Made by a program: the position numbers and the translations under genes. Positions 47,880 to 53,115 of a DNA stretch of 64,000 bases are shown here, one piece after another. The stretch's first letter is position 1; each line of letters starts with the position of its first letter. The stretch covers positions 744,001 through 808,000 of the forward strand of contig NC_014098.1 in the NCBI RefSeq assembly GCF_000092905.1, given 5' to 3'. Below the pieces are notes generated by a model. It was not told where the DNA came from. It made no database searches and saw only the letters and a program-made list of their open reading frames with translations. The DNA is from Kyrpidia tusciae DSM 2912. GTDB lineage: Bacteria; Bacillota; Bacilli; Kyrpidiales; Kyrpidiaceae.

Positions 47880-47918
47880 TTTACGTATTTGCCTCTTCGT
47901 TGTATCCTTGAATCAAGG
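47880..47918 (+). promoter_or_regulatory. Promoter and palindrome of the AbrB-RelE pair
   Basis: TTTACG (47880-47885), 17 bases and TATCCT (47903-47908). CCTTG-AAT-CAAGG (47906-47918) is a perfect palindrome over the -10/start region, a fitting site for autorepression by the AbrB-type antitoxin. Confidence 0.5.
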
Positions 47919-47939
47919 ATGAAAGGAGGCCGTCTAAAG

Positions 47940-48338
47940 ATGACGAAGTCGGCGTATGCTGTCAGTGTGCAGGAAAGGAGGCCCACGGCAGTGGAAAAGT
48001 ATGTGCGGATCACGGGGAAGCGTCAAGTGACGATTCCAAAAGAGTTCTTTGATCAGCTTGGCATGGGAAACGTTCTGCGTGCGTATGTCGAGCGAGGCCG
48101 TCTTGTGCTGGAACCGGTCCGGGTCGAAGATCCGATGGATTTTTCGCAGGAAATTATCAACGACTTAGCAGACGAAGGTCTGACGGGTGAGGAACTGAAA
48201 AGGGAGTTTGCGCGGCGCCGGGAGGGCCTGCTGGCGGCCATGAACGAACTGGTTGCAGAAGCCCGCAAGGAGGCGCTGAACGGCTCGGAGCCGGATGGAG
48301 ACGCCTTTATGGAAGAATTGATCAAAGGCGATGAGTGA
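47940..48338 (+). CDS. AbrB/SpoVT-type antitoxin
   Basis: A 132-residue protein. Residues about 20-65 form a swapped-hairpin AbrB domain (KYVRITGKRQVTIPKEFFDQ then GMGNVLRAYVERGRLVLEPV); the rest is an acidic helical region ending in MEELIKGDE that can wrap a toxin. ATG 47940 is 10 bases after AAAGGAGG; later starts (GTG 47991) would lose only the leader. It overlaps the RelE-type toxin gene by 8 bases, the usual antitoxin-first order. Confidence 0.82.
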   Translation: MTKSAYAVSVQERRPTAVEKYVRITGKRQVTIPKEFFDQLGMGNVLRAYVERGRLVLEPVRVEDPMDFSQEIINDLADEGLTGEELKREFARRREGLLAAMNELVAEARKEALNGSEPDGDAFMEELIKGDE

Positions 48339-48639
48339 GTACCGGTACAAGTTGTCGTCAAGGGCGAAGCAGGTATTGAAGAAAATCAAGGACAAGGCGC
48401 TGCTTCGCCGGTACCAGGCGACGATGTGGGCGATCTGCGAAAGGCCGTTTGAGGGAGACCCAAAAGTCGGCGATTTGGGCGGAGTTTTTACGGTCGGGTT
48501 TCGATACGTGGATGGCGAACATCGAGTGGCCTACACGGTCGTCGAAGACGGGGACACAGAGCCTTTTGTTCTCATTTTGCTCGTTGGGACGCGGGAGAAT
48601 TTCTATGAGGAATTAAAACGCATATGGAAAGGGCTGTAA
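48331..48639 (+). CDS. RelE/ParE-superfamily toxin
   Basis: A 102-residue toxin-fold protein: YRYKLSSRAKQVLKKIKDKA (helical hairpin), a central basic GVFTVGFRYVDGEHRVAYTV strand pair and FVLILLVGTRENFYEELKRI. The R-x-x-Y pattern in HRVAY fits RelE/ParE enzymes. RelE members cut mRNA in the ribosome and ParE members target gyrase; I cannot separate these by eye. ATG 48331 overlaps the antitoxin stop. The pair looks intact, unlike its surroundings. Confidence 0.8.
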   Translation: MSEYRYKLSSRAKQVLKKIKDKALLRRYQATMWAICERPFEGDPKVGDLGGVFTVGFRYVDGEHRVAYTVVEDGDTEPFVLILLVGTRENFYEELKRIWKGL

Positions 48640-49812: not shown

Positions 49813-52800
49813 TCATTCACAGGCCATCCGCCAACCCGTGCGCTCCTCAAAGGCCGCCGTCCGCTCTTCCGGCACCGGCCTCTCCGTGCGCACGCGGACT
49901 TCCCGGCGGTCCTGGTGAATCCCCGGCGTGCGGAACAGGCCGCAGTCGCCGGCGAGCTCTTCAGCCAGTTGGATCAACGCCTGCTGGTGGATTTTGTTGG
50001 CCACCCGCAATGTCCATCCGGTTTCCTCCGCCATCTGTTCCAGCCAGTCGCGGTGTTTCCGTCCGGCCTCCGGGGTGATGAACATCAGTTCCAGGGACTC
50101 TCCCTGGACGGATTTCTTGTAGACGGCGATCCCGCGCGCTTTTGCCGAAGCCTCGACCCAGGACAGCGCGCGGTTCATCTCCATGCGCTCCCGGCCGGAC
50201 TCGCCGGGCGTCCGGACCGTCTCCTCTTCCCCGGATCCGGTCCCCATGGATCGCGATGGTCCGGCAAATTCCAGTGTCCACCCGGTCCGCTCTCGGAACC
50301 GTTCCGCCACGGCACGGCCCTGTTCCGGTTCCACCGCGCCGCTCACCTGAACCCGGACCACCTTGTCCGCCAACATGAGAGACGGGTTTTTCCGCATCTC
50401 CAGCCCCTCTTCCCGGCACAGTTCCACGGCCGCTTCCGACAGTCGCTGTTGATTGACCGAGTCGGCCCACGCCACTCGCCAGCCGGTAAACCGCTCCACC
50501 CGCTCGGCAAAGGCCGCCGCCTCCGGCCTCTTCCGCACCGCGTCCGGAAAGGCGACCGACAGCGTGATGGTCCCCAGTGCGGGATCCAGACCCGCCTTCT
50601 GCAGTTCCAGCCACGCCGGCGCCTGTTCCCGGACAGCCGCCAAAGCCGCATTTTGCTCCATGCGGCGTTCCGCCGTCCCGGCCGCCTCCCGCAGGTTCAG
50701 GTCCACCGGGACCACCCGCACGGTGCCGCCCACCCGCTGCCGCAGGGAGTCCTCCATCCGGAGGCGCTGCTCCACCGTCAATCCGCCCGCCACGGGCACC
50801 TCCACCCGCCGTTCCTGCGGGTAAATCCTGACATTTCCGGCCTTCCCCCCGACCGACCGGGCCGTCTCTTCGGCCAGACGCTGCACCGCCGGAGGATACA
50901 CGTGGGGCTGGAGTTCGTACCGCCAGCCGCCCTGGATCTCCCGGGCATTGACCGTCTCCCGGACTTCTTCCGGGACGGCCCACGGGAACGCCACATAGAG
51001 GCGGAACACCCGCGACTGTTCATCCGGCTCCACCTTGCGCCAGCCGTACGGGGCCAAGGCTTCACTCACCGCTTCCAGTCCGAGGGGATCCGCCGGAACC
51101 AGCCGCCCCCACTCTTCGGCCAGGCGGTATCCCAGGCGTTCCGCCGGCCGGTACCCCCACACCCGGTTTTCTTCCACGCAGGCTTGCGCCGCCCGCCACA
51201 AACCGGCCAGGTACTCCTCCGGGTGTTCCCCGGCCGGCACCCGCCCCAGGGCATCCACCACCAGGCCCACCGGAACCCGCAGCGCCGTCCCGGCGGCCGT
51301 GGTCACCACGCACGCCGAGGACGTGACCGACGCGCACACCCCGATGGCCAGTTCCCCCGCCTGCCCGGGCGTCCGGAAGACCAGGACCTGCCCGGTCCAG
51401 GAGTGCGCCCGCACCGGGCGTTCCTCCTCGCTCACATCCGCCGAGGTAAATCTGTGTCTCCGTTCTCCGGGGAGGATCTCGACGGTCTCACCCAGTCCGG
51501 CGGCGCGGATGTCGGCTTTGGGCAAATACGCCCGGAGTTCCGCCGCCAGCATTTCCTTGGCCTCGGGATCGCCGTGGACCAGCAACACCTGCCGGGGACG
51601 GAGCTGGGCTGCCGTCTGGACCAGTTCGCGCCGGTCCGCGTGGGCGGACAGCGAGTACAGGGCCACCTTCGCGTTCACCGGCACCACCCGGTCCGGCAGG
51701 AACCACCGCCGCTCCGACTCCGGCTGTTCCGCCATGTTCAGCAGCCGCCGACCCGGAGATTCTTCATCCTGGTAGCCGCACAGGAGGATCGCGTTGTTCT
51801 CGTGCTGGATCAACTTGTCCGCATAGAACACGGACGGTCCGCCGTTCAGCATTCCGGAGGAAGCGACAATGCAGGCGGGCCGGCCCTCCACCACTTCCCG
51901 CCGTTCCTCGGGCCGGCGCACAAACCGGATGTCCTCGCGGTCAAACAGGCTTCCCGTCGTGCGCAGCATCCGTTTCGCCGGGCCCCGCAGCAGCTCCCCG
52001 TGGGCCTCGTAGACCGGACACACCGACCGCACCAGCCCGTCCACCACCAGCGGGAATTTGGGATAGTCTTTGTTGTATCTCATAAAATCCTGGAGAATCG
52101 TCAGCACTTCCTGGGCCCGCCCCACGGCAAAGGCGGGAATGAGCACGAACCCGCCCCGCTCGATGACCTCGGCCACCTGCCGGGCCATCCGGTCCTCCTG
52201 TTCGGCGCGGTTGCCGTGCAGGCGGTTGCCGTAGGTGGACTCGGTGATCACGGCATCGTACGCACTTCCGCGTGGCATCCGGAGGCCGGGGAGCAGCCGG
52301 CCGGGTGTGACGGAAAAATCCCCCGTGACCAGCACGCTGCCCTCGGCTTCGGTCACAAAGCCGATGGACACCGCCCCGAGGATGTGCCCGGCGCTGTATG
52401 TGGCCACCTGCATCCCGTTCCACCCGAACACCTTGTCCTGGCCCATCACCCGCACCCTGGGCCACAGGTCGTTGAGCTGGTCCTCGGTGAACACGCTGAC
52501 CTTTCCCTCTTCCCGGCTCACCTTGAGGGCGTCCGCCAGCATCACCCGGGCCAGGTCCAGGGTCGCCCGGGTCATGAACACCGGCGCATCGGGGAAAAGG
52601 GACGAGATCAGGGGCAGGGCCCCGATGTGGTCCTGGTGGGCGTGAGTGACAAAGATTCCCTGAATCCGGTCTCCTGCCCGGGCCAACCGGTCCAGGCTCG
52701 GAAGCGGGTCCCTGTCGTCCATCCGGACCCCGGCGTCCACCAGCCAGCCGCCCGTTTGGGTCTCAAACCACAGGCAGGAAGCCCCGATGTCAGTCCCTCC

Positions 52801-52818
52801 GAGAAACGTCACCCGCAT
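49813..52818 (-). CDS. Beta-CASP metallo-beta-lactamase nuclease with C-terminal TGW repeat array
   Basis: A 1001-residue protein. Residues 1-450 are an MBL/beta-CASP RNA-nuclease core: zinc motif THAHQDH (58-64), SAGHILGA (142-149), VTGDFS, the beta-CASP motif VITESTYGNR (190-199), SLSAHADRREL (389-399) and LVHGDPEAKEM (413-423). Such enzymes (CPSF73/Ysh1-like) cut RNA. Residues 465-575 are a further unknown domain. Residues about 580-1001 hold five or six degenerate strand-helix-strand-helix units marked by GW at 592, 631, 779, 846, 934 and 995, most as ERTGW or FTGW followed by a strand and an NQQxL helix. ATG 52818 is 8 bases after AGGAG; ATG 52824 is too close. No neighbour explains its role. 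Confidence 0.85.
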   Translation of the reverse strand: MRVTFLGGTDIGASCLWFETQTGGWLVDAGVRMDDRDPLPSLDRLARAGDRIQGIFVTHAHQDHIGALPLISSLFPDAPVFMTRATLDLARVMLADALKVSREEGKVSVFTEDQLNDLWPRVRVMGQDKVFGWNGMQVATYSAGHILGAVSIGFVTEAEGSVLVTGDFSVTPGRLLPGLRMPRGSAYDAVITESTYGNRLHGNRAEQEDRMARQVAEVIERGGFVLIPAFAVGRAQEVLTILQDFMRYNKDYPKFPLVVDGLVRSVCPVYEAHGELLRGPAKRMLRTTGSLFDREDIRFVRRPEERREVVEGRPACIVASSGMLNGGPSVFYADKLIQHENNAILLCGYQDEESPGRRLLNMAEQPESERRWFLPDRVVPVNAKVALYSLSAHADRRELVQTAAQLRPRQVLLVHGDPEAKEMLAAELRAYLPKADIRAAGLGETVEILPGERRHRFTSADVSEEERPVRAHSWTGQVLVFRTPGQAGELAIGVCASVTSSACVVTTAAGTALRVPVGLVVDALGRVPAGEHPEEYLAGLWRAAQACVEENRVWGYRPAERLGYRLAEEWGRLVPADPLGLEAVSEALAPYGWRKVEPDEQSRVFRLYVAFPWAVPEEVRETVNAREIQGGWRYELQPHVYPPAVQRLAEETARSVGGKAGNVRIYPQERRVEVPVAGGLTVEQRLRMEDSLRQRVGGTVRVVPVDLNLREAAGTAERRMEQNAALAAVREQAPAWLELQKAGLDPALGTITLSVAFPDAVRKRPEAAAFAERVERFTGWRVAWADSVNQQRLSEAAVELCREEGLEMRKNPSLMLADKVVRVQVSGAVEPEQGRAVAERFRERTGWTLEFAGPSRSMGTGSGEEETVRTPGESGRERMEMNRALSWVEASAKARGIAVYKKSVQGESLELMFITPEAGRKHRDWLEQMAEETGWTLRVANKIHQQALIQLAEELAGDCGLFRTPGIHQDRREVRVRTERPVPEERTAAFEERTGWRMACE

Positions 52819-53115
52819 TCCCATCGCTCCTGTAGAAACATGATCGTGGTCTCACGTGATCATCATACCGCATCTTTGTTCACCGGGCGAACGATTCCCC
52901 GCGGATCCTCTGCCTCACCGGCGGTCGATCCGACGGTACAGCCAATAAGAGTACGCGACGGGCACAACGCCGGCTGCTCCTCACCTTTGCGGAGTGCGGA
53001 ACCGCAGACGCGTGGCGGCGACGCCAACGAGGTTCAGCGGCCGCCCTTTGCCGTGAGGAATGCCCTAGCTGGCATTGGGACATTCGTACTATTTTTTCTG
53101 CCACAGTTATAAGAC
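52819..53115. other. Non-coding gap between nuclease and protease genes
   Basis: About 297 bases with no supported gene. A TATGAT (minus strand, near 52870) could be the -10 of the nuclease promoter. The region has no repeat array. Confidence 0.4.

Follow-up and report, generated by a model that had tools for sequence, protein, structure and literature searches.

A candidate bacterial counterpart of the archaeal RNA-cutting termination enzyme in the heat-loving bacterium Kyrpidia tusciae

The closest described counterparts of the protein analysed here are the archaeal nucleases of the aCPSF1/FttA type (arCOG00543, TIGR03675; MTH1203, PH1404 and FttA of T. kodakarensis), in which one N-terminal pair of type II KH-type domains shares a chain with an MBL/beta-CASP core bearing the full set of catalytic motifs. 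The KH domains of aCPSF1 bind U-tracts at terminators, and function in vivo needs both these domains and the nuclease activity (PMC8716108). A comparable tandem pair of type II KH domains is found in bacterial NusA (KH1-KH2) and in archaeal NusA-like proteins, although NusA is devoid of a nuclease. Homologous cores are known from the short bacterial beta-CASP RNases of the TTHA0252 type (about 430-570 aa), which lack a KH-like tail, and from the beta-CASP effector Cas14 of type VII CRISPR systems (NF045584), where the core is followed by a C-terminal tail. An FttA/CPSF73-type termination factor was sought in cyanobacteria in a 2026 paper, where the only candidate was an RNase J with 16.6% identity to FttA (PMC13289151). 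Searches of an open-licence library returned no paper whose title and abstract describe a bacterial beta-CASP enzyme with KH-type domains, in agreement with the first-pass annotation of this DNA, which knew of no bacterial enzyme of such build. The K. tusciae protein resembles aCPSF1/FttA in the branch and the complete motifs of its core and in its paired, putatively type II KH-type domains; it differs in being bacterial, in carrying these domains C-terminally, as two to three pairs within its family rather than one, and in the presence in that family of an extra SH3-like or winged-helix domain.

The features of the gene, located in the 64,000-nucleotide stretch of the K. tusciae DSM 2912 genome that was analysed (the window), are collected in Table 1. 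The locus had been placed at 49813-52818 in the first-pass annotation; the placement holds, but the start chosen there is the second ATG and the full open reading frame reaches 52824.

Table 1. Coordinates in the window of the nuclease gene and of the observed or predicted parts of its product
Feature	Residues	Coordinates	Strand	Basis or remark
Whole nuclease ORF		49813..52824	-	1003 codons from first ATG; stop 49813-49815
Second ATG		52818	-	Gives 1001 aa plus stop
Nuclease core (MBL + beta-CASP + RMMBL)	1-430	51529..52818	-	Pfam, TIGR03675, invariant residues, PDB phmmer
SH3/Tudor-like five-strand barrel, predicted	477-526	51241..51390	-	Model strands; VIA
Helical linker, predicted	533-569	51112..51222	-	Structure model
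Module 1	581-705 (units 581-637, 642-705)	50704..51078	-	HMM, hhalign, model, clade support
Module 2	718-852 (second unit 790-852)	50263..50667	-	Model, profile comparison, HMM
Module 3	877-1001 (units 881-940, 945-1001)	49816..50190	-	Model, profile comparison, HMM

That the protein opens with an intact MBL/beta-CASP core, as first proposed from the letters, was borne out by Pfam matches and by invariant metal-binding and catalytic residues. The matches to Beta-Casp (1.7e-22), RMMBL (2.1e-14) and Lactamase_B (1.2e-10), the first two above the Pfam cut-off, all fall inside residues 12-429; MBL motifs 1-4 and beta-CASP motifs A-C are all present; and H59-x-H61-x-D63-H64, H145, D167, E193, H393 and H415 are invariant in an alignment of 23 sequences. 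The protein matches the aCPSF1 model TIGR03675 at 8.7e-81 (272 bits), and a phmmer search of PDB sequences with the core returned aCPSF1 (2ycb; 1.2e-53, 185 bits), INTS11 (167 bits), CPSF73 (163 bits) and TTHA0252 (106 bits), with RNase J far lower. By sequence, the core is assigned to the CPSF73/aCPSF1/INTS11 branch and not to RNase J. Identity as RNase J was rejected, the score against TIGR00649 being 38.4 bits for a cut-off of 400; a gene resembling RNase J (607 codons) is found elsewhere in the K. tusciae genome (C1:1583468). Nor is the protein a member of aCPSF1, to judge from its domain order and from the curated model: its TIGR03675 score lies below the curated cut-off of 580.2, the match begins at position 175 of the 631 in the model while the core begins at residue 1 of the protein, and the N-terminal KH part of the model is unmatched. 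The match ends at position 613, leaving the last 18 positions, at the dimerisation end of the model, unmatched as well. Against the Cas14 model the score is 214 bits (cut-off 800) and the match is confined to the core. The predicted barrel that follows the core aligns with the Tudor domain of PHF1 (8h43; VIA Z 8.1, rmsd 1.5 over 53 residues) and resembles Spt5 KOW5 as well.

The rest of the tail is an array of three modules of ~125-135 residues, each made of a pair of related units, giving six units in all. Tandem degenerate repeats had been suspected from the recurrence of GW at residues 592, 631, 779, 846, 934 and 995 and of GG at 697. These positions are correct, the tail having six GW where 1.25 would be expected (20,000 shuffles, P = 0.00085), and the repeats were recovered by profiles and HMM. 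The unit ends, however, are residues 631, 697, 779, 846, 934 and 995; GW592 is off this register and sits, in the model, after helix 1 and before strand 1 of module 1's first unit. The earlier unit count had to be corrected to six units arranged in three pairs. Comparison of the tail with itself by BLASTP found no repeat, and family profiles built from about 70 relatives were needed to reveal it. In hhalign comparisons, module 1 detected module 2 at 98.2% and module 3 at 94.5%, and modules 2 and 3 detected each other at 99.9%. First units matched first units, and second units second units, at up to 99.3-99.4%; first against second units reached 78-97% in modules 2 and 3, and the two units of module 1 failed to detect each other. 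Control comparisons against segments of the core (36 with units and 6 with modules) all remained below 4%. An HMM built from modules 2 and 3 only also matched module 1, at residues 581-703, with a domain E value of 7e-8.

Structure prediction points to a repeating tail rather than to a single non-repeating domain, with six alpha/beta units, at least four superposable KH-like ones having been named beforehand as what would support the idea. The AlphaFold2 model of residues 440-1001 (57 sequences) has a pLDDT of 89.4 and a pTM of 0.46, a low pTM being expected of beads on flexible linkers; whole-chain TM-scores are low for the same reason, namely the flexibility of the array. The tail of the Thermoanaerobacter wiegelii relative was modelled with a pLDDT of 92.7. 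In the predicted models, all units other than the first ones in modules 2 and 3 read alpha-beta-beta-alpha-beta; the second units of all modules, and the first of module 1 as well, have a single helix after strand 2. The top Foldseek matches of the Kyrpidia tail include NusA (2.5e-6), FttA (2.6e-5) and aCPSF1 (7.9e-5), and its top VIA rows are 3af5, 2ycb, 9bct and 2xr1; for the T. wiegelii tail, Foldseek rows 1-6 are all aCPSF1/FttA (best 4.5e-6). The best PDB matches of two separately modelled tails are thus aCPSF1/FttA and NusA KH domains, in line with the earlier proposal of a KH-like array as in archaeal aCPSF1. At the level of single units, VIA-align superposed the first unit of Kyrpidia module 2 on KHb of FttA (76-142) with an rmsd of 2.4 A over 67 residues (Z 8.9), and the corresponding first unit of the T. 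wiegelii tail on the same domain with 2.3 A over 67 (Z 9.2); the latter superposes on the KH domain of ribosomal protein uS3 as well, and VIA placed the second unit of module 3 on NusA (4mtn; rmsd 2.0 over 55, Z 7.0). In these model-based comparisons the top FttA KHb rows exceed the lower VIA-align rows (uS3 KH, eS7, NusA, PrgH and LarE, at Z 7-8) only modestly, and the second units also resemble other alpha-beta-beta-alpha-beta folds, namely the ring-building domain of PrgH, LarE and eS7. As modelled, the fold of the array is KH-like.

The sequence evidence agrees weakly with such a fold. Pfam KH families did not match the tail, and searches with the tail in Pfam, NCBIfam and PDB sequences returned nothing significant. 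Among relatives, weak matches were obtained between L138 and positions 65-130 of the aCPSF1 model, which correspond to KHb (E 0.045), and between L118 and a NusA-like model, over both of its KH domains (E 0.054); the aCPSF1 model matched 2 of 51 module-3 segments (best 0.0011). Profile-profile comparison with NusA KH and uS3 KH was weak, reaching 33% at best, on a scale on which the true KH families NusA KH2 and uS3, compared likewise, score 5%. In bacterial NusA the KH2 domain closes with ...LTGWKIDIKS, its TGW standing in register with that of the tail units. The GXXG loop, a typical feature of KH domains that bind RNA, is kept in NusA KH2 (GKEG in K. tusciae NusA) but is degenerate in the array. 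Its form in module 3 is (G/A)-x-(R/K)-(Y/H), with 30 G and 36 A among 67 sequences at position 1 and a basic-aromatic pair comprising R or K in 49/70 and Y or H, at position 4, in 58/70; in module 2 it is variable and has no glycine pair. Given this degeneracy, 'KH-like' is the fitting term.

The explanation that we favour, and regard as probable, is that the protein is an RNase of the CPSF73/aCPSF1 type that stands alone and captures RNA via its C-terminal KH-like array. The zinc-dependent MBL/beta-CASP core would cleave RNA, and the three KH-like pairs, carried on flexible linkers after the SH3-like barrel, would hold single-stranded RNA near the active site. This division of labour, with an array that holds the RNA and a core that cuts it, is drawn by analogy with aCPSF1 (PMC8716108), like which the K. 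tusciae protein most likely works, and the same analogy suggests RNA both as the substrate and as the ligand of the array. Cleavage would be endonucleolytic, possibly also 5'-3' exonucleolytic, and would serve to process or turn over RNA or to form transcript 3' ends. The array might instead be an RNA-independent scaffold, whose KH-like units no longer bind RNA and serve dimerisation or contacts with the ribosome, RNA polymerase or another protein, leaving the core alone to bind the substrate. Such a role would accommodate the degenerate GXXG loop, and PrgH builds protein rings with the same fold; we nevertheless consider it unlikely, given that the module 3 loop retains its basic-aromatic pair and that sister proteins have dsRNA-binding motifs in the tail instead.

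Those sister proteins belong to a large family, as yet without a name, whose members are probably RNA-cutting enzymes. In a phylum sample, the core was matched at E 1e-77 or better in 35 of 398 genomes, well separated from ordinary beta-CASP enzymes of 500-600 residues (~1e-60 and weaker), and the module is patchily distributed, being carried by 11 of the 399 genomes in the class. Relatives were found in Bacillota, in Chloroflexota (Ktedonobacteria among them) and in bins placed in Armatimonadetes, Planctomycetota and Riflebacteria; cultivated hosts include Thermoanaerobacter and Bacillus species, among the latter Bacillus methanolicus with L103, and the findings would bear on many proteins so far annotated as metallo-beta-lactamase-fold hydrolases. 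In the K. tusciae protein the catalytic motifs are intact and the repeat architecture is present; its family is widely distributed and has no linked partner genes. Scanning 95 proteins with the module HMM revealed two modules in 74 and three in 10. In the Kyrpidia/Alicyclobacillus clade (nine members, support 1.0) the third module sits at the inner end, and sequence comparison identifies module 1 as a lineage-specific extra pair; in the Dictyobacter protein L163 the third module is at the outer end, so the array has expanded at least twice. The domain between core and modules varies too, from an SH3/Tudor-like barrel in K. tusciae to an RNase II-type winged helix in several relatives, and three proteins of other lineages (L141, L144 and L147; Chitinispirillaceae, Myxococcota and a bin without classification) have tails with a dsRNA-binding motif (8.6e-13 to 1.5e-10) and at most a trace of the KH-like module. 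Such exchange of RNA-associated domains after a common nuclease core lends support to a role in RNA capture.

Several variants were encountered among these proteins. A Chloroflexi member (L150:252-3014) ends, after two KH-like modules, in a ParB N-terminal-like domain (5.7e-6), and another member (L032, G094:C1:649050-652100) contains one in-frame TGA and is possibly a decayed copy. Four beta-CASP proteins of 805-848 aa (L041-L044) have an N-terminal extension of ~340 residues without a Pfam match; an aCPSF1-like arrangement was considered for them and rejected, as the module HMM matches nothing there.

A special case of the RNA-capturing nuclease would be a bacterial FttA/aCPSF1-like factor that binds nascent RNA through its KH-like array, cuts it and promotes the termination or clearance of RNA polymerase and its release. 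Both the core and the KH-type domains are closest to aCPSF1/FttA, the KH pairs are NusA-like and the barrel after the core is similar to Spt5 KOW5, all of which speak for this possibility; against it stand the patchy distribution of the module, the unmatched N-terminal KH part and final 18 positions of the aCPSF1 model, and the fact that Rho is encoded in 14 of 14 genomes checked (13 that carry a family member and that of the sister species, which lacks one), so that any role in termination would be additional to Rho. We rate this specific function as quite improbable, with RNA processing or turnover at least as likely as termination. If it were true, an FttA/aCPSF1-like factor would act beside Rho in many Bacillota and Chloroflexota. 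Compared with the cyanobacterial RNase J, the core of the present family is by its sequence far closer to aCPSF1, and the family also has KH-type pairs, which makes the question of a bacterial CPSF73-like 3'-end or termination nuclease directly testable.

The surroundings of the gene were also considered, a role in defence having been raised in the first-pass annotation together with the prospect of a recurring gene neighbourhood. Upstream lie genes for an SDH-type ClpP-like protease and a DUF2231 protein, which are 93-95% conserved in a sister species (G001); the homology stops at 53055, short of the nuclease gene, which is missing from the homologous flank of the sister genome. The opposite flank is a transposase-rich stretch, pieces of which are scattered in the sister genome, and the mobile-element zone is peculiar to K. 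tusciae in this comparison. Horizontal movement or loss of the nuclease gene is likely. A position at the edge of this zone, which the sister species does not have at the corresponding locus, and the occurrence of one free module near recombinases in another genome (G267) might suggest a defence or mobile-element nuclease. Neither of the two earlier ideas was upheld, however: across about 70 relatives no neighbour recurs beyond a few close loci, the one larger cluster consisting of generic ABC-transporter ATPases at varied positions; matches to PADLOC defence models are scattered among the 120 neighbours inspected; phage records gave distant matches to the core only; and no place in the plasmid records covers 80% of the protein. 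A defence or mobile-element function is accordingly highly improbable, and the gene has the character of a solitary chromosomal gene of patchy distribution, without linked partners. The free module of G267 is a protein of 169 residues (L185:1640-2149, minus strand) that consists of one KH-like module of the module 3 type without a nuclease, and lies near a serine resolvase and a tyrosine recombinase. Near the transposon zone of K. tusciae, at 47889-48639 of the window, a MazE/AbrB-like antitoxin gene overlaps a ParE-like toxin gene, and the two are likely to form a toxin-antitoxin pair.
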